NCBI GenBank assembly: GCA_017417215.1
Contig: JAFPZP010000066.1
Location: forward strand, 1 to 64,000
Length of the DNA stretch: 64,000 nucleotides
Source of the DNA: Candidatus Rifleibacteriota bacterium
Lineage (GTDB): Bacteria; Muiribacteriota; Ozemobacteria; Ozemobacterales; Ozemobacteraceae
Direction: 5' to 3'
The notes under the pieces were generated by a model, which worked only from the letters and a program-made list of their open reading frames with translations, did not search any database and was not told the DNA's origin. Each line of letters begins with the position of its first letter. Within the stretch, counting starts at the first letter, position 1. Positions 105-12,116 of this stretch are shown in pieces. A program made the translations under genes and the position numbers.

Positions 105-132
105 TTGACGGAAATTTAACTTTAAATATTAT
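105..132 (+). promoter_or_regulatory. Probable sigma70-type promoter of flagellin gene 1
   Basis: TTGACG (105-110), 16 nt, TATTAT (127-132). The same TTGACG-N16-TATTWT arrangement, preceded by attctcc, precedes flagellin gene 2, which supports it. No good sigma28 box was found here. Confidence 0.55.
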
Positions 133-142
133 TTTCGACTTA

Positions 143-194
143 TCGCAAGGATGCGAAATTTTAAAATTTTTAAAAAATGATTCACGGAGGAATC
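143..194 (+). promoter_or_regulatory. Two-hairpin leader of flagellin 1, CsrA-type
   Basis: Hairpin 1 has stem TCGCA/TGCGA (143-147/152-156) around an AGGA loop. Hairpin 2 has stem GATTC/GAATC (179-183/190-194) around ACGGAG, which contains the Shine-Dalgarno sequence. GCAAGGATGC closely resembles the known CsrA consensus ACARGGAUGU. Both hairpins recur before flagellin 2 and upstream of flaG with compensatory stem changes. CsrA binding is inferred; neither csrA nor fliW is in the window. Confidence 0.75.
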
Positions 195-199
195 TAATA

Positions 200-2434
200 A
201 TGTCTTTACGTATTAATCAAAACGTTACTTCTCTTTCTACCTATTCTAACCTCAACAGAACTTCTGGCCGCTTAGATAAGTCTATTGGTAAATTAAGCTC
301 TGGCTTACGCATTACCTCTGCAGCAGACGACGCAGCAGGCTTAGCAATCAGCGAAAAGATGAGAAGCCAGATTAGCGGCTTGAACCGTGCAAAACTCAAT
401 GCTCAAGACGGCGTTTCCATGTTGCAGACTGCTGAAGGTGGCTTAGGTGAAACAGAAAGCATTATTCAGAGAATGAGAGAACTTGCTATTCAGGGGTCCA
501 ATGACACACTTACAACAAATGACAGACTTGAAATTCAGAAAGAAATCAATCAGCTTAGAGACGCAATCGACGATATCGCTGATTCTACTGAATATAACAC
601 TAAAAAATTGCTAGACGGCAGTCAGACCGCTCTTATAAGTGCAAGCTCAAAGTCAATTTCTGGAACAGCCAATGGTTCTGGGGTTCAGGGCGGTGATTTC
701 AATGTAAGCATGACTGTTGTTCAGGGCGGTATTTCTCAGATGCAGACCAGCCAGATGTTTATGAATAAAGATACTGGCAATCTTGCATTAGGAAACACAA
801 AATTAGAAGATATTGCTCAGTTCTACGATGAAAACGGTGTCTTTGCTCTTGATACAGCTCAGACTCTTACTGTAACTGGGAATGCAGAAACAGCTCAGTT
901 CGTTCTTGATGGAAAAATGACTTTGAATGAACTGGCTTCAGCTTTACAAAATGCTATTGCTGGTGCAAGCGGTCTTGGTATTAAAAACTCTTCAGCTACA
1001 GTTGTAAGTACTGCTCAAAGCGGAGTTTCCGGATTAGGCGGCTATTTACAGATTACTTCTGGTAAGATTGGTGACGTCGGCGAATTTTCAATAGCTGGCG
1101 ATCAGGCTGTAATTGACGCTTTGGGTATGACTATCAGCCGACATTCAGCAAATAATATTGTTCAGGTTTCAACAAAAGATGCCAGCGGTAATACAAGAAG
1201 AGTAACCACAAGCACAGATGTCGCTTCCAGTCTGCTTGACGGTATAGATTTGAAATTTGCTTCTCAAGCTGCTCAAGTTGCAGGAAACGGCGGTATCGTA
1301 GATGGTCTTAAATTTACTGAAGATGCCACTGTAGGATTCAGTTTCATGGTTGGAACAGCAAGTGTTAATATAAATACTACATTTGCAGCTTCAAGCTGTT
1401 ATTCTATGGAAGGTATAGCAGAAGCTATCAATGCTAAAATTGCTGCAGATGCCACTGCCAAAACAAGTGGTATCGAAGCAACTGTTGTAGATGGTCAGAT
1501 ACGTATTTCATATAATCCAACAGACCCAAGCTCTCCAACCGAAATTAAGATTTCTGCAGGCACTGATGTTATAGGTCTTATTGAAGGAACCTACACGGGC
1601 TTTGTTGATGGCGACAAAGATATGGATTATGCAGTCAAAGGCATGACAATGCTGCAAGTTAACACTGCAAATGTAGGTGCATTGATGACTGTTAAGGTTA
1701 CTGATGGAGCAGGAAACAGCGAAACAATCACCGTTGGAACTACTGTTAGCGCAGGTGACGCAGATTTGGTAGAAATTAATGGTTGGGTAACAAGCGTAAA
1801 TTCAACTCTTACTACTTCTTCTGTATCTGCTAGAGTTGACGCTGTAAATGGTTCTATCGCCTTTACTTCAACTCAGCTTGGAAATATGAATATCAGTGGT
1901 AATCCGGCTATTCAAAGCTTACTCAAGATTGAATCTACAAGTACTAAAGCATCAGTAGTAACATCTACCGACCTGCTTGGTTACAAGGATGGAACAGCAA
2001 AGGGTGCTGGAGATACCAACTTCAGACTGCATGTAGTTGATAACAGCCCAACCTTCCAGATTGGTGCAAATCAGGGACAGAATATGAAGATTACCATTAG
2101 CGATATGTCGGCTTCGGCTCTGGGAATAGACAAACTGGATATGTCGACTACGAGAGGCGCTCAGAAGGCTATTGGTAGGTTGGATAAAGCATTATCTATA
2201 GTTTCAGCGGAACGTTCAAAGATTGGTGCTTTTGAAAACCGCATGAACTACACTATAAATAACCTTGAAAATGCAGCAACCAACCTCACTGATTCAGAAT
2301 CTCGTGTAAGAGACCTGGATATGGCTGCTGAAATGACGGAATTCACCTCGGCTCAAGTCTTGCAGCAGGCAGCAACGGCGATGCTGGCGCAGGCGAATAG
2401 TTCCAGCCAGTCAGTCCTGCAGTTGCTGAGCTAA
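200..2434 (+). CDS. fliC: Flagellin 1 (long form)
   Basis: Structural subunit of the flagellar filament, exported by the flagellar type III system. The N-terminal D0/D1 region (about residues 1-140, with INQNVTSL, KLSSGLRI, DDAAGLAISEKM) and C-terminal region (about 640-744, with SRVRDLDMAAEM and ending in QLLS) are classic flagellin. The middle, about 145-600, is a long Ser/Thr-rich variable segment, so the protein (744 aa) is well above the common 270-500 aa. The start follows cacggagg. The next gene is a close paralog of almost equal length. The Ser/Thr-rich middle fits O-glycosylation by the Pse/Maf genes further along, which is inference. Confidence 0.97.
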   Translation: MSLRINQNVTSLSTYSNLNRTSGRLDKSIGKLSSGLRITSAADDAAGLAISEKMRSQISGLNRAKLNAQDGVSMLQTAEGGLGETESIIQRMRELAIQGSNDTLTTNDRLEIQKEINQLRDAIDDIADSTEYNTKKLLDGSQTALISASSKSISGTANGSGVQGGDFNVSMTVVQGGISQMQTSQMFMNKDTGNLALGNTKLEDIAQFYDENGVFALDTAQTLTVTGNAETAQFVLDGKMTLNELASALQNAIAGASGLGIKNSSATVVSTAQSGVSGLGGYLQITSGKIGDVGEFSIAGDQAVIDALGMTISRHSANNIVQVSTKDASGNTRRVTTSTDVASSLLDGIDLKFASQAAQVAGNGGIVDGLKFTEDATVGFSFMVGTASVNINTTFAASSCYSMEGIAEAINAKIAADATAKTSGIEATVVDGQIRISYNPTDPSSPTEIKISAGTDVIGLIEGTYTGFVDGDKDMDYAVKGMTMLQVNTANVGALMTVKVTDGAGNSETITVGTTVSAGDADLVEINGWVTSVNSTLTTSSVSARVDAVNGSIAFTSTQLGNMNISGNPAIQSLLKIESTSTKASVVTSTDLLGYKDGTAKGAGDTNFRLHVVDNSPTFQIGANQGQNMKITISDMSASALGIDKLDMSTTRGAQKAIGRLDKALSIVSAERSKIGAFENRMNYTINNLENAATNLTDSESRVRDLDMAAEMTEFTSAQVLQQAATAMLAQANSSSQSVLQLLS

Positions 2435-2465
2435 ATAAAGCTTTAAGATAAAAGCTATAAGCTAC

Positions 2466-2500
2466 AAGCCAGAAATAACTATAAGATAGTTTTCTGGCTT
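2466..2500 (+). other. Long hairpin between the flagellin genes
   Basis: The arms 2466-2482 and 2486-2500 pair almost perfectly, with a 2-nt bulge and an AAG loop. It lies 32 nt after the flagellin 1 stop and lacks a T-run, so it looks more like an mRNA 3'-end protector or attenuator than a classic terminator. It sits in AAGCTT/ATAAGC-rich low-complexity sequence. Confidence 0.5.
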
Positions 2501-2601
2501 AGAGCTTAAAGCTTATCGCTTACAACTTAATCAAAAAAATATGCAAAATCAGGCTTTCGTCTGAGAATTAAAAAATTTTTTAAATTTTTTAAAAATTCTC
2601 C

Positions 2602-2629
2602 TTGACGAAGGTTCGATTTTGCATATTTT
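2602..2629 (+). promoter_or_regulatory. Probable sigma70-type promoter of flagellin gene 2
   Basis: TTGACG (2602-2607), 16 nt, TATTTT (2624-2629). It matches the flagellin 1 promoter in sequence, spacing and distance to the leader hairpins. Confidence 0.55.
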
Positions 2630-2639
2630 TTTGTCCTTA

Positions 2640-2681
2640 TCGCAAGGATGCGAAAATATTGGACTGGTTCACGGAGGAATC
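2640..2681 (+). promoter_or_regulatory. Two-hairpin leader of flagellin 2, CsrA-type
   Basis: Hairpin 1 has stem TCGCA/TGCGA (2640-2644/2649-2653) with loop AGGA. Hairpin 2 has stem GGTTC/GAATC (2666-2670/2677-2681, one G-U pair) with loop ACGGAG holding the Shine-Dalgarno sequence. The hairpins are 12 nt apart, versus 22 nt in the flagellin 1 leader. Confidence 0.75.
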
Positions 2682-2685
2682 ATCT

Positions 2686-4917
2686 ATGTCATTACGTATT
2701 AATCAGAATGTTACTTCACTTGCTACATATTCAAATTTAAATAGATCTGCTTCACGTTTAGATAATTCTATCCAGAAACTTAGTTCCGGTCTTCGCATAA
2801 ACAGCGCTGCCGATGATGCAGCCGGCCTGACCATAAGTGAAAAGATGAGAAGCCAGATTAAAGGCTTGAATCGTGCTAAGCTGAACTGCCAGGACGGTAT
2901 GTCTATGCTTCAGACTGCTGAAGGCGGTTTGAATGAAAGTGAAAGTATAATGCAGAGATTGCGCGAACTCGCTATTCAGAGTTCAAACGATACTCTTACT
3001 ACTAATGATAGATTAGAAATACAAAAGGAAGTTAATAACCTTAGAGATGCTATAGACGACATTTCAAACGCAACAGAATTTAATACTAAAAAGCTTCTTG
3101 ACGGAAGCCAGGCTGCTCTTATAAGCGCAAGTTCACACTCAGTAGTTGGTGTTGCCAAGGGTGCTGGAGTTGACGGCGGAGACTTTTCCATAAGCATGGC
3201 TATCGTAGAGGGCGGTATTTCTCAGATGCAGACATCTCAGCTGTTCCTTGATAAAAATACAGGAGATCTGGCTCAAGGTAATACCAAACTTGAAGATATT
3301 GCTCAGTTTTATGATGATAACGGTGTTTTCGCAGTTGCTATTCCTCAAACCCTTTTCGTAACCGGTAACTCTGAAAGCTTTGAATTTACTATTGATGGGA
3401 AAATGACCCTCAATGAACTTGCTGCTGCAATGCAGAATGCTCTTGCCAGCACTAGTGCTCTTGGACTCAGAAACTCTCAGGTTACTGTAATCAGCACTGC
3501 TCAAAGTGGCGTTTCTGGTGTGGGCGGTTACTTGCAGCTTACTTCCGGTAAAGTTGGCGATGTTGGTGACTTTTCTATTGCCGGCGACCAGGCTGTAATA
3601 GATGCATTAGGTCTGACTGTAAGCCGTCAGTCTAAGAACAATCTTGTTTCCTTCAACCTTAAGGACGCTTTTGGAAATACTAGAAAAGCTACTACCAGCA
3701 CAGACAGAGTTTCTGGTCTTCTTGACGGAATAGACCTCAGATTCGATGGCTCACCAGCTCAGATTGCCGGTGTTGGCGGAATTGTCAATGGTCTCAAATT
3801 CTCTGCCGCTGAAACTCTGACTTTTGAATTCCAGGTCAGTGAAACTGCTACTTCTATAGTTACTGTAAATGTTGCTTTTGCACAGGATGATACTTATTCT
3901 ATGGAAGGTATCGCTGCCGCAATTAATGCTGAAATAAAAGCTGCTGCTCCAAATTCTGGAATGGAAGCATCTGTTGTTGACGGTCAGATTCGTCTTGCCT
4001 ACAGCCCAACAGATCATAAGGCTCCAACTGAAATTAAAGTAACTTCAGGCAGCGAATGCATTGGTATTGTAAACGGCACTTATACTGGCTTTGTAGATGG
4101 CGACAAGAATCTTGACGACGCTATAAAGGGCTTCAGCCTCCTTACTGAAGTTGATAAAGCCAGCGCAGAACTTACTATAAGAATTACAGACGGCAATAAC
4201 GCTACTATAGATGTTTCTGTTGGAAAAACTATTACTGCTGGTGCTGACCTTGTTGAAATCAACAACTGGATTACAACTTGGAACTCTAACATTGTTAACG
4301 CTACTGTTGCCGCAAGACTTGACGAAGTTAACGGTTCTCTTGCTATAACTTCTACTTATATTGGAAAATTTAACAGAAGCAATGCTAGTGCTATTCAGAG
4401 CAGACTTACAATAGAATCTGTAGTTGGCACTAATACTGCTATGACCAGCATGGATTTGTTTGGTTACAAAGATGGAACTGCAAAAGGAGATGGTGATACC
4501 AATTTCAGACTTCATGTAGTTGATAACAGCCCAAGTTTCCAGATTGGTGCTAATCAGGGTCAGAATATGTCTATCAGCATTGGCGATATGTCTGCTGGTG
4601 CTCTTGGAATAGACAAAATCGACATGACTACTGTCGAAGGTTCTCAGATTGCTTTGAGTAAAATTGATAACGCTTTGTCTATACTTTCTTCTGAACGCTC
4701 TAAACTTGGTGCTTTCATGAATCGTATGGAATACACAAAGAACAATCTGGAAAATGCCGGCACAAATATGACTGACTCTGAATCTAGAATCAGAGACCTC
4801 GATATGGCTTCTGAAATGACAGAATTCTCTTCTGCACAGGTTTTACAGCAGGCAGCTACAGCTATGCTTGCGCAGGCTAACGCCTCCGGCCAGTCTGTCC
4901 TTCAGTTGTTGCAGTAA
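2686..4917 (+). CDS. Flagellin 2 (long form)
   Basis: Second filament subunit, 743 aa, clearly homologous over its whole length to the preceding flagellin, including the variable middle. Conserved D0/D1 motifs lie at both ends (INQNVTSLATYSN; SRIRDLDMASEM; ending in QSVLQLLQ). I placed the start at 2686 because the Shine-Dalgarno sequence cacggagg lies just before it and the sequence aligns with flagellin 1 from the first residue. A longer frame from 2602 would only translate the structured leader. It has its own promoter and leader and is followed by a strong terminator, so it is likely monocistronic. A tandem duplication is the simplest origin. Confidence 0.97.
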   Translation: MSLRINQNVTSLATYSNLNRSASRLDNSIQKLSSGLRINSAADDAAGLTISEKMRSQIKGLNRAKLNCQDGMSMLQTAEGGLNESESIMQRLRELAIQSSNDTLTTNDRLEIQKEVNNLRDAIDDISNATEFNTKKLLDGSQAALISASSHSVVGVAKGAGVDGGDFSISMAIVEGGISQMQTSQLFLDKNTGDLAQGNTKLEDIAQFYDDNGVFAVAIPQTLFVTGNSESFEFTIDGKMTLNELAAAMQNALASTSALGLRNSQVTVISTAQSGVSGVGGYLQLTSGKVGDVGDFSIAGDQAVIDALGLTVSRQSKNNLVSFNLKDAFGNTRKATTSTDRVSGLLDGIDLRFDGSPAQIAGVGGIVNGLKFSAAETLTFEFQVSETATSIVTVNVAFAQDDTYSMEGIAAAINAEIKAAAPNSGMEASVVDGQIRLAYSPTDHKAPTEIKVTSGSECIGIVNGTYTGFVDGDKNLDDAIKGFSLLTEVDKASAELTIRITDGNNATIDVSVGKTITAGADLVEINNWITTWNSNIVNATVAARLDEVNGSLAITSTYIGKFNRSNASAIQSRLTIESVVGTNTAMTSMDLFGYKDGTAKGDGDTNFRLHVVDNSPSFQIGANQGQNMSISIGDMSAGALGIDKIDMTTVEGSQIALSKIDNALSILSSERSKLGAFMNRMEYTKNNLENAGTNMTDSESRIRDLDMASEMTEFSSAQVLQQAATAMLAQANASGQSVLQLLQ

Positions 4918-5035: not shown

Positions 5036-6265
5036 ATGAAAATAATTCAACGAAAAACTTATTTAAAAAATATCAGAAAATACATTGATATTGACTTAAT
5101 CAAGGTTCTTACTGGAGTAAGACGCTGTGGAAAATCTATTCTTTTAAAACAGATAATAGAAGAAATAAAAGAAAAGGTTTCCGAAGACCATATAATCTAT
5201 ATCAACTTTGAAGATTTTGAATTTGAAAATATAAATACAGCTCAAAAGCTTCATGAGTACATCAAAGACAAAATAATTGATTCCCAAAAATATTATCTCT
5301 TTTTTGATGAAATTCAGCATGTATCAGAGTTTGAAAGAGTAATCGCTTCTTTTAAATCAACTTTAAACTGTTCTATTTTTATAACAGGAAGCAATTCAAA
5401 ACTGCTTTCTGGCGAACTTGCTTCTCTTTTAGTCGGTCGAACAGTGGAATTTAAGATTATGCCATTTTCTTATTCTGAAGTTGTTCAGCTTTATAAGGCG
5501 AATAGAAAGAAAATACCGGAAGATTTTATTTATGATTACATAAAATGGGGTGGAATGCCTCAAAGGTTTGATTTTAACGAAGAAAAAGAAATAAAAATCT
5601 ATTTAGAAGATATTTTTAGAGGAATTGTTGAGAAAGATATTTATAAAAGAGATTCCGAAATAGAACGTTATAAATTCAATGCTATTTCTGCTTATATTCT
5701 TTCTAATGCCGGGAAAGAATTTTCGGCTGAAAATATAGCCAATTATTATAATTCCCAGAATGAAAAGAATAAGAAAGCTATAGAAAAAAAGACCATCTAT
5801 AATTATATAGAAAAGCTGGAAAAAGCTTATTTGATTTCAAGAGTAAAAAGATTCAATATTGCAGGTAAGGAAGTTTTAAAAACTATCGAAAAGCAGTATG
5901 CGATAGATATGGGGTTCCGAACAATAAATACAAATCTTATCAATTATGAAGATACTTTTTATCTAGAGAATGTTATTTATAACGAGCTTATTTTAAGAGG
6001 TTATACAGTTTATACTGGAAAAAGCTATAAGAATGAAATTGATTTTGTTGTTATTGATGGTAAGAAAAAGTGTTTTATTCAGGTTTCTTACATAATGTCG
6101 AACGAAGAAACTATAAGAAGAGAATTTGAGGCTTTCCGACCAATAAAAGATGCTTCTCCAAAATATGTTTTGTCATTAGATAAAGTAGACCTCTCTCATG
6201 ATGGTATAACTCACATTAACATTGAGGATTTTCTATTGCATAAAAAAGATTTATTTCTAGCCTAG
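5036..6265 (+). CDS. AAA-type ATPase with DUF4143 C-terminal domain
   Basis: Member of the large family of stand-alone bacterial/archaeal ATPases with a C-terminal DUF4143 region; cellular role not established. Walker A is GVRRCGKS at residues 27-34 and Walker B ends in FFDE at about 89-92, followed by the family's ITGSNSKLLSGELAS and LVGRTVEF motifs. The C-terminal third has a winged-helix-like segment and a PD-(D/E)XK-like core (NEIDFVV ... CFIQVSY). Full length for the family. There is no Shine-Dalgarno sequence and the predicted transcript starts about 10 nt upstream, so translation may be near-leaderless. It is flanked by unrelated genes and a repeat-rich gap; such genes are often scattered by transfer. 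Confidence 0.9.
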   Translation: MKIIQRKTYLKNIRKYIDIDLIKVLTGVRRCGKSILLKQIIEEIKEKVSEDHIIYINFEDFEFENINTAQKLHEYIKDKIIDSQKYYLFFDEIQHVSEFERVIASFKSTLNCSIFITGSNSKLLSGELASLLVGRTVEFKIMPFSYSEVVQLYKANRKKIPEDFIYDYIKWGGMPQRFDFNEEKEIKIYLEDIFRGIVEKDIYKRDSEIERYKFNAISAYILSNAGKEFSAENIANYYNSQNEKNKKAIEKKTIYNYIEKLEKAYLISRVKRFNIAGKEVLKTIEKQYAIDMGFRTINTNLINYEDTFYLENVIYNELILRGYTVYTGKSYKNEIDFVVIDGKKKCFIQVSYIMSNEETIRREFEAFRPIKDASPKYVLSLDKVDLSHDGITHINIEDFLLHKKDLFLA

Positions 6266-6559: not shown

Positions 6560-6588
6560 TTGATAACAAAACTCCCTTATGCTATTAT
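6560..6588 (+). promoter_or_regulatory. Promoter of the SLH porin gene
   Basis: TTGATA (6560-6565), 17 nt, TATTAT (6583-6588). It lies just downstream of the Crp-type palindrome and about 45 nt before the start codon. Confidence 0.7.
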
Positions 6589-6632
6589 ATCCAACTCAAA
6601 GAGAAAGAATAGAAGCTTTATTAGGAGTGAAA

Positions 6633-8249
6633 ATGAACAATAAATTTATTTATACATCTGCAATGATTATAGCTAGTGCAGCAGCATCCTATGCTGCAGC
6701 ATTTAATGATATTCCTGCAAGCCACTGGGCTTATGAAGCAGTAAATCAGATGGCTGAAAAAGGCATCATTCAAGGTTTCCCAGATGGAACATTTAAGGGC
6801 AAACAGAATGTAACTCGCTATCAGCTTGCTATGATAACAGCAAAAATGTTGGCCAATGTAGAACAGAATGGCGCTGGTTCCATGGCAAAAAGCGATTTGC
6901 AGACATTAGAAAAACTCACAGTAGAATTTGCTGATGAACTTGCTTTAATCGGTATTAAAACTACATCTTTAGAAGATGACATGAAAGATGTTAAAGAAGA
7001 TTTAGCTTATTTAAAGAATGATGTAGCTTCTATAAAAGACTGCATGAAAAACGGCAACTTAGACAAAGTCAGACTTTCAGGCGATATTCTGGTTAGAAAT
7101 TACGGCTTTGCTCATGACAGAGGCAGTCTTGGTAATTTTGATTTCGGCGAAGACCATCGTCATAGAACTGAAACCGGTTTCAGATTACAGTTAGATGCAG
7201 ATGTTGATGAAAATGTTTCTGCAAGAGCTAGATGGAATCTAATCGGCAACAATGGTTTGAATGACTGGGACGGCAACAATAAAGGAACAGCCGAAGTTGA
7301 AATTGCTTATATCAAGATTAAAGATTTGTTCAGTTTTGGCGGTGAATTTAAGTTCGGGCGCGATTGGAATCAACACGGCCATGGCTTCGTATTGTATAAC
7401 TATACTGATTCTGTAAGTTATACTAAGAGATGCGGCGATGTAGATATGGGTTTCAACGTTTTCTTTGACCGTCAGGGCAATAAAGACTATTACAATGTTT
7501 GGAACTTAAATGCAGATTATGATTATAAGGGTCATAATTTATACTTTGGTTTCTATTTCAACGAACGCGCTTATGATGAAAACGACAATGCTTATGCTGA
7601 CAACAGAAAAGAAACCAGATACGAATTTGGTTCCTATGGTAAGCTGAGAAACAACGATGACAAACTGACTTATGATTTGGCCTTTGTTTATAGCGATATA
7701 GAAGACGGCAACGGTGCTGGTTCTGATGCTCAGGGTCTGTTAAGTCATATCGCTTTTAACTATGACAGCAAGAAGCAGTTTACGGCAAAGATTGCTTATA
7801 CTAGAGCTGACGATGAATCTAATGCCAATGTTTGCGTAGAAAATCTAAATGATTTCCTGATGGCTAAAGAAACTGCTTTTGAAGATTTGTATCTTTGCAC
7901 TGTTGCTTTAAACGGTAATGACAATCAGACTTTCAAGAATCTGACAGATTTGAAATTGCAGATCGGCTATACTCTGAAAAACGATGACAGACATAGATTC
8001 AGACTTGATTATGACCACTTGGAAAATGTTTATGACGGCAAGGCAAATACTTTCAATACTGTAGCTGGGAATCCTCTTGTTGGCTTTATTAATGATTTGA
8101 AGGGTGATGTAGTAACCTTTGCTTATACTTATCAGCTTTCACCTCATACAAGATTGAAACTCTGCTATCAGAATTCTAAGGTTAAAGCTACTAATATGCC
8201 TACTCAGAAGGTTGACCTTTACTTCACAGAATTGTTCAGTACATTCTAA
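6633..8249 (+). CDS. SLH-domain outer-membrane porin
   Basis: Probable outer-membrane channel anchored to the cell wall through an SLH domain, as in OmpM-like and cyanobacterial porins. A signal peptide (about residues 1-22) is followed by one SLH repeat (FNDIPASHWAYEAV to RYQLAMITAKML, about 23-75), a charged helical/coiled-coil spacer (about 90-150) and a long region of alternating aromatic beta strands ending in Phe, as expected for a barrel. I chose the start at 6633 because aggag precedes it at proper spacing and the signal peptide begins there. An upstream in-frame ATG at 6579 lies inside the promoter. Probably monocistronic, with Crp-type control. Confidence 0.88.
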   Translation: MNNKFIYTSAMIIASAAASYAAAFNDIPASHWAYEAVNQMAEKGIIQGFPDGTFKGKQNVTRYQLAMITAKMLANVEQNGAGSMAKSDLQTLEKLTVEFADELALIGIKTTSLEDDMKDVKEDLAYLKNDVASIKDCMKNGNLDKVRLSGDILVRNYGFAHDRGSLGNFDFGEDHRHRTETGFRLQLDADVDENVSARARWNLIGNNGLNDWDGNNKGTAEVEIAYIKIKDLFSFGGEFKFGRDWNQHGHGFVLYNYTDSVSYTKRCGDVDMGFNVFFDRQGNKDYYNVWNLNADYDYKGHNLYFGFYFNERAYDENDNAYADNRKETRYEFGSYGKLRNNDDKLTYDLAFVYSDIEDGNGAGSDAQGLLSHIAFNYDSKKQFTAKIAYTRADDESNANVCVENLNDFLMAKETAFEDLYLCTVALNGNDNQTFKNLTDLKLQIGYTLKNDDRHRFRLDYDHLENVYDGKANTFNTVAGNPLVGFINDLKGDVVTFAYTYQLSPHTRLKLCYQNSKVKATNMPTQKVDLYFTELFSTF

Positions 8250-11469: not shown

Positions 11470-11496
11470 TAATTGGTATAAGAATAGTGCCGATAA
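11470..11496 (+). promoter_or_regulatory. Sigma28 (FliA) promoter of the flaG transcript
   Basis: GCCGATAA (11489-11496) exactly matches the known sigma28 -10 element; TAAT (11470-11473) lies 15 nt upstream, the standard spacing. The predicted start near 11503 falls at the base of a 10-bp hairpin. Confidence 0.75.
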
Positions 11497-11500
11497 ATAT

Positions 11501-11576
11501 AATAAGAAGGGGTTAAGTATGCCTTCTTATTCTGGCTGCAAGGATGCAGTGTCTTGTTAGATTCAAGGAGGAATCT
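11501..11576 (+). promoter_or_regulatory. Structured leader of the flaG transcript with two GGA hairpins
   Basis: In order: a perfect 10-bp hairpin (11501-11510/11522-11531) at the expected 5' end; a CTGCA/TGCAG stem (11536-11540/11545-11549) with AGGA loop; and an AGATTC/GAATCT stem (11559-11564/11571-11576) whose loop AAGGAG is a Shine-Dalgarno sequence. The last two match the flagellin leaders, with two compensated base pairs in the first stem. The gap 11171-11717 otherwise holds only the promoter and a micro-ORF. Confidence 0.75.
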
Positions 11577-11582
11577 GATAAA

Positions 11583-11684
11583 ATGAATTATCTGTCTGTC
11601 AAATTTTTGTACAGAGCTAAGACAGAATATGTACATTCCTCAGAAAAATCCTTGATACTCAATAAGACTCTCTGCTTTTCCTAA
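11583..11684 (+). CDS. Micro-ORF (33 codons) behind a flagellin-type leader
   Basis: ATG at 11583 lies at normal distance from aaggagg in the leader hairpin and opens a 33-codon frame ending TAA at 11682. The peptide starts MNYLSVKFLYRAK and shows no similarity to flagellin or anything I know. It could be a leader peptide, a remnant of a lost gene, or just the landing site that makes the leader regulatory. flaG follows 33 nt later with its own Shine-Dalgarno sequence. Confidence 0.4.
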   Translation: MNYLSVKFLYRAKTEYVHSSEKSLILNKTLCFS

Positions 11685-11717
11685 CAGTTTATCGGTGTAC
11701 AGTAAAAGGAGTTTTAT

Positions 11718-12116
11718 ATGAGTATTGATTCAATAAATACAAGTATAAATGCTGGTTCTTTCTCTAATTACAAAAGTAATGTAGATATTCCCAGTAGTTC
11801 TGAGGCTCCTAAAATAGAAAAGCCAGAACTTAAGGATGTTGAATTGATGTCTACTAAGGCTGCTGAAAACTTTTCTGAAGAAAGTAAAGAACAGCAGGAA
11901 AAGCTTGAATCAGCAATCGAAAAGCTGAATAAAACAGCAAAAGTATTCAATCGTTCATTGAAATTCAAAATGCATGAAGCAACTCATAGAACAATGATAT
12001 CTGTTATTGATGACAATACAGATAAAGTCATTCGTGAAATTCCTGGCGAAGAAGCCTTGGATATGGTTGCTAAGATGCAGGAATATCTTGGACTTATCTT
12101 CGATAAGAAAGCATGA
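11718..12116 (+). CDS. flaG: Flagellar protein FlaG
   Basis: FlaG family, which influences filament length in other bacteria; exact function not settled. The variable N-terminal part (about residues 1-65) is followed by the conserved C-terminal domain: LNKTAKVFNRSLKFKMHEA, then VIDDNTDKVIREIPGEEALDM and a final YLGLIFDKKA. Length (132 aa) is normal. Shine-Dalgarno aaaggag. fliD follows after a terminator, the usual flaG-fliD-fliS order although here spread out. Expected to be FliA-dependent. Confidence 0.92.
   Translation: MSIDSINTSINAGSFSNYKSNVDIPSSSEAPKIEKPELKDVELMSTKAAENFSEESKEQQEKLESAIEKLNKTAKVFNRSLKFKMHEATHRTMISVIDDNTDKVIREIPGEEALDMVAKMQEYLGLIFDKKA

Follow-up and report, generated by a model that had tools for sequence, protein, structure and literature searches.

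Conserved pairs of GGA-loop hairpins in flagellin mRNA leaders of Candidatus Riflebacteria form a probable CsrA operator

Introduction

Each of two neighbouring flagellin genes is preceded by two small hairpins with GGA in their loops, the second of which presents the Shine-Dalgarno (SD) site. The question raised by the locus is whether these hairpins are an operator for CsrA. The window, by which we mean the whole 64,000-nucleotide stretch of DNA analysed, is contig C27 of an assembly of 2.57 Mb that is 69% complete. The source is an uncultured rumen bacterium of Candidatus Riflebacteria. Judged by flagellin, its best named relatives are the rumen MAG RUG334 (97% identical) and Candidatus Riflebacteria bacterium Reindeer_2_mag_167 (95%). 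An SLH-domain porin-like protein encoded at 6579–8249 (SLH match) is consistent with a diderm host. A gene for an AAA_14/DUF4143 ATPase is found at 5036–6265, between flagellin 2 and the porin-like genes.

In Bacillus subtilis, the hag leader has two CsrA sites, one of them over the SD, and fliW adjoins csrA (PMC7652899, PMC6529632). The short 5'UTR of Campylobacter jejuni flaA folds into two stem-loops, SL1 and SL2, whose loops are of the ANGGA type; SL2 lies on the ribosome-binding site, the stem-loops show compensatory changes among species, and flaG is also bound by CsrA (PMC4894983). In Escherichia coli glgC, an upstream high-affinity hairpin is combined with an SD-overlapping site and one CsrA dimer bridges the two (PMC7652899).

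Results

Hairpins and putative promoters in the window

A preliminary description of this DNA had reported, in both flagellin leaders, an AGGA-loop hairpin followed by a hairpin with the SD in an ACGGAG loop. The observation is real, the hairpins lying at or near the places where it had put them (Table 1). Also as described, the stems are conserved between the flagellin copies, with a G-U pair in hairpin 2 of copy 2, and hairpin 1 of a third copy, upstream of flaG, differs from that of copy 1 by two compensated pairs. The proposed resemblance of the loops to the CsrA consensus is borne out by the site as defined by SELEX and NMR, ANGGAN or RUACARGGAUGU, which they match (PMC7652899).

Of the five copies of GCAAGGATGC in the 2.57 Mb genome, three are in the leaders of the window and two are in contexts without the second hairpin. 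When the 22 SD-bearing ORFs of the window were scanned, such hairpins were found at the flagellins only, hairpin 1 being picked for flagellin 2 owing to an upstream TTG. Folds of the single window leaders were slightly better than those of shuffled sequences (z-scores of -0.88, -0.80 and -1.97). Because these single-leader folds are unimpressive, comparative evidence was needed; the window alone would have given a weak claim and it is the comparison with relatives that decides.

A scan for sites resembling the putative promoters in Table 1 found no more of them than in shuffled sequence. The putative promoter of flagellin 1 would put the transcript start about 10 nt 5' of hairpin 1, and the CTTGACG block is also present upstream of the orthologous leaders in relatives. 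The block conserved in relatives upstream of hairpin 1, CTTGACG-N14-TATACT, has a spacer that is unusually short for a sigma-70 promoter. The box GCCGATAA upstream of the flaG leader, which we presume to belong to sigma-28, is shared by relatives. The region separating the two flagellin genes contains an almost perfect palindrome, about 100 nt long (AAAAAAATATGCAAAATC...GATTTTGCATATTTTTTT, 2532–2633), which overlaps the putative flagellin 2 promoter and may be a bidirectional terminator. Rfam matches in the first 20 kb, mostly of plant miRNA models to this palindrome, were below threshold and were rejected as chance.

Table 1. Positions of the leader elements and associated genes. Coordinates are those of the window unless contig C61 is given.
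Feature	Position	Strand	Remarks
Putative flagellin 1 promoter	105..132	+	TTGACG-N16-TATTAT; 10/12 consensus matches
Flagellin 1 leader, hairpin 1	143..156	+	UCGCA-AGGA-UGCGA (equally UCGC-AAGGAU-GCGA); putative high-affinity CsrA site
Flagellin 1 leader, hairpin 2	179..194	+	GAUUC-ACGGAG-GAAUC; SD site in loop
Flagellin 1	200..2434	+	744 aa; AUG at 200
Putative flagellin 2 promoter	2602..2629	+	TTGACG-N16-TATTTT; 9/12 consensus matches
Flagellin 2 leader, hairpin 1	2640..2653	+	Same sequence as copy 1
Flagellin 2 leader, hairpin 2	2665..2682	+	UGGUUC-ACGGAG-GAAUCA; loop contains SD; one G-U pair
Flagellin 2	2686..4917	+	AUG at 2686; 69% identical to flagellin 1
Sigma-28-type -10 box upstream of flaG leader (presumed)	11489..11496	+	GCCGATAA
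flaG-region leader, hairpin 1	11536..11549	+	CUGCA-AGGA-UGCAG
flaG-region leader, hairpin 2	11560..11575	+	GAUUC-AAGGAG-GAAUC, extendable to 11 bp; SD of small ORF
33-aa ORF behind third leader	11583..11684	+	Position kept in genera g1, g4, g6 and g9; sequence not
flaG	11718..12116	+	PF03646, E 1.7e-28; own SD
fliW	C61:12110-12469		E 3.4e-37; immediately upstream of csrA
csrA	C61:12553-12711		E 1.6e-25

Conservation and covariation of the leaders

The comparison covered flagellin leaders of 24 genomes in the family, together with leaders from other families in the phylum. Hairpins were counted if their stems had 4 bp or more. By this measure 75% of the 52 family leaders have a GGA-hexaloop hairpin (dinucleotide shuffles, 4.1%) and 87% have an SD hairpin (shuffles, 0.7%). 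In the other families each hairpin was found in 44% of leaders, compared with about 2% in shuffles. There, wholly different stems surround a constant ANGGAN loop, for example uuccggu-AUGGAU-accggaa and uuaauggc-AAGGAA-gccauuaa. Throughout the leader alignment the A and the GGA in the loop of hairpin 1 are invariant and the stems covary.

Covariation was scored on 64 leaders and 12 pairs, the alignment being anchored on the GGA motif and not on the stem; from a set of 71, seven leaders were omitted because their loops were irregular or they aligned weakly, which favours the result slightly. The score was 0.513 compared with 0.163 for shuffled alignments and at most 0.137 for slid controls. None of 500 shuffles reached the observed score, though some leaders share ancestry, so that shuffle counts are not probabilities; the slid controls retain this relatedness yet score far lower. 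In the same 64 leaders, 88.3% of cells could pair (68.2% when shuffled) and 164 cells showed double changes (56.6 when shuffled). Changes on both sides of the stem were seen in 6/6 pairs of hairpin 1 and 4/6 pairs of hairpin 2. The preliminary description had proposed an alignment of leaders with a covariation test, and had held that relatives without the GGA hairpins would speak against it; the test supports the structure and the relatives keep the hairpins, on different stems.

At E 0.01 a covariance model, built partly from some of the sequences that it matched, detected the element in 32 of 40 phylum genomes; it found the three copies of the window at E 4.5e-9 to 5.5e-8 (2637–2683 at flagellin 2, E 4.5e-9; 11533–11577 in the flaG region, E 6.3e-9). 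Matches in the window's own genome fell on three flagellins, two in the window and one at C61:23377, and on the flaG region, while a fifth site was weak (E 0.11); the element is enriched on flagellar genes.

The layout had been likened to the two-site control of hag, and this comparison holds for both the arrangement and the distance between the GGA motifs. The interquartile range of this spacing is 25–29 nt in Riflebacteria leaders and most Bacillota flagellin leaders have 20–33 nt. Hairpin 1 was found in 71% of 70 Bacillota leaders (2.7% in shuffles) and the SD hairpin in 33%.

csrA and fliW

A csrA homologue, the lack of which the preliminary description had counted against CsrA control, is encoded in tandem with fliW on another contig of the genome (Table 1). 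Positions HR44 and N55 of CsrA are presumably the residues that bind RNA and contact FliW. Entry 5dmb is a FliW-CsrA complex. The CsrA found here aligns to its CsrA chain through both positions, each being retained, and the FliW found here matches its FliW chain.

Among the 40 phylum genomes, csrA was found in 32. Both csrA and the leader were present in 29 genomes, neither in 5, csrA only in 3 (G013, G015 and G027, with no match to the leader model) and the leader only in 3, giving a Fisher p of 0.004 that is confounded by relatedness and loss of flagella. Flagellins too are absent from at least three of the five genomes that have neither (G020, G023 and G028), so the co-occurrence is not independent evidence and is mainly a matter of csrA, fliW and flagellins travelling together. 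In G024, of 92% completeness, flagellins and one match to the leader model were present and csrA and fliW were not found, possibly owing to assembly gaps. Three genomes of family f5 (G025, G027 and G029) have two fliW genes near csrA.

No CsrB-type RNA (RF00018) was detected in ten genomes including that of the window, while the E. coli control was detected. This is as expected for organisms using FliW.

The flaG region and short-ORF units

In genera g1, g4, g6 and g9, a sigma-28-like box is followed by the two hairpins, a short ORF of 29–76 aa and then flaG with its own SD. A protein-coding role was considered for the short ORFs, whose sequences proved unconserved between genera, and in G001 there is no usable ORF between the leader and flaG. 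In g1 a downstream stretch, AAAAATCCTTGAT, is complementary to the SD hairpin and is conserved even in G001 (11583–11717 in the window; L183, L185 and L188). It is predicted to pair with the SD hairpin (P about 0.64; MFE z-scores of -0.4 to -3.7) and could thereby sequester the SD within a long hairpin, as an alternative fold. We regard this as a lead; the covariation term for it is unfavourable (+1.5), with both-sided changes in only 3 of 25 pairs.

Extra copies of the leader, each with an ORF of 8–48 aa, precede flagellin leaders in G011 (two copies), G030 and G001, and a further one in G034 has a 16-aa ORF (length counted by hand). They are located 150–250 nt upstream of the flagellin leaders (L265, L266, L270 and L140 at about 1300–1350). 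These copies may be what is left of lost flagellin genes, or may give transcripts that act as decoys for CsrA.

A new carrier and a flagellin without the element

The two hairpins, with a sigma-28-like box, also precede a gene in the window's own genome (contig C50 of G000; L262, 1012–2391) for a protein of 444 aa with weak EF-hand similarity. The stems are different again (TTGCTAT-AAGGAA-GTAGCAA and AACTC-AAGGAG-GAGTT). Close homologues stand behind the same two-hairpin element in two genus mates, and a homologue is present in G011 (BLASTP E 4e-54). Single matches of the model at these loci are weak and it is the recurrence in four genomes that makes the element credible here. The loci with the element are L262, L263, L264 and L276.

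All 17 leaders of the long flagellin gene directly after csrA lack an SD hairpin (L001, 1774–1931, and 16 homologous ones). These have a different conserved leader in which, by eye, a GGGG/CCCC-type pairing can be seen. This flagellin may be expressed independently of the CsrA switch.

Discussion

The reading that we favour, with a probability of about 0.9, is that CsrA represses flagellin translation through this leader and that FliW relieves the repression, in the manner known from Bacillus hag and Campylobacter flaA. The two hairpins would together form a bipartite operator of flagellin mRNAs, in which a CsrA dimer would contact two loops, the 5'-proximal ANGGAN of hairpin 1 and, about 27 nt downstream, the A(C/A/U)GGAG of the SD hairpin. 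CsrA on the SD hairpin would block binding of the 30S subunit and so repress translation, and export of flagellin would free FliW to antagonise CsrA. For Riflebacteria, we infer CsrA binding, SD occlusion and partner switching by FliW from what is known of the CsrA and FliW families. Against this reading count the weak single-sequence folds, G024 with its flagellins and leader match but no csrA or fliW found, the three genomes with csrA and no match to the model, and the csrA-adjacent flagellin gene with no SD hairpin.

The likeness to Bacillus hag lies in the two GGA sites, one on the SD, and in the adjacent fliW and csrA. Unlike in hag, the SD site of Riflebacteria is itself in a strong covarying hairpin, and the element is common to several flagellin genes and the flaG region but not to the csrA-adjacent flagellin. 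With C. jejuni flaA the leaders share a diderm host, two ANGGA stem-loops and flaG as a further target; they differ in that fliW and csrA are adjacent in Riflebacteria, and in that the flaG-region element of g1, g4, g6 and g9 precedes a short ORF ahead of flaG and not flaG itself. The preliminary description had stressed the diderm lineage. A CsrA-type flagellin leader is indeed present in one here but, with C. jejuni flaA as precedent, this is not new (PMC4894983). E. coli glgC similarly has an upstream hairpin and an SD-overlapping site, on a different target, and E. coli CsrA is controlled by the CsrB/C RNAs that were not found here.

Alternatively, the leaders might work above all as sponges, plentiful leader RNAs of flagellins and short ORFs titrating CsrA away from weaker targets. 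C. jejuni flaA mRNA does titrate CsrA (PMC4894983), and the additional leader copies before short unconserved ORFs in several genomes would suit this role unless they are remnants of lost flagellin genes. However, the overlap with the SD and the spacing suit direct repression, to which titration would be an added role. We consider it unlikely that titration is the main function, and the two could coexist.

A role without CsrA, either intrinsic tuning of translation by SD occlusion or thermosensing or stabilisation of the mRNA by a 5' hairpin, appears very improbable. SD hairpins by themselves can limit initiation, they are kept in G024 where csrA was not found, and hairpins of at least 4 bp are more frequent at the SD in the family than in Bacillota (87% against 33%). 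Such a role would not, however, require hairpin 1 to keep the A and GGA of its loop unchanged, this loop being away from the SD and the stem varying freely, and most genomes with the leader encode csrA. Chance, or the shared ancestry of duplicated leaders whose structure is not selected, might account for the duplicate copies 1 and 2 and the weak single-sequence z-scores but is refuted by hairpin frequencies of 75–87% in leaders against 0.7–4% in shuffles and by covariation, on different stems across families, that 0/500 shuffles equalled.

Repression by CsrA, relieved by FliW, is a kind of switch already known in Bacillus and Campylobacter and its occurrence in this phylum is the addition; no account of how flagellin is regulated in the phylum turned up in the literature searched. 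More doubtfully, the phylum may have made the operator into a cassette before short unconserved ORFs; such units would then serve as CsrA/FliW-responsive leader ORFs or as dedicated decoy transcripts for CsrA. This would cover the element before flaG in four genera and before some flagellins in g1, g4 and g9.

The comparative RNA evidence is direct and extends the FliW-CsrA checkpoint on flagellin to a phylum that is uncultured, and the covariance model gives a means of finding CsrA operators by sequence. The flaG leader ORF and the EF-hand-like sigma-28 gene emerge as new candidate targets, one flagellin escapes the element, and the results support flagellin control as an old and widespread job of CsrA.
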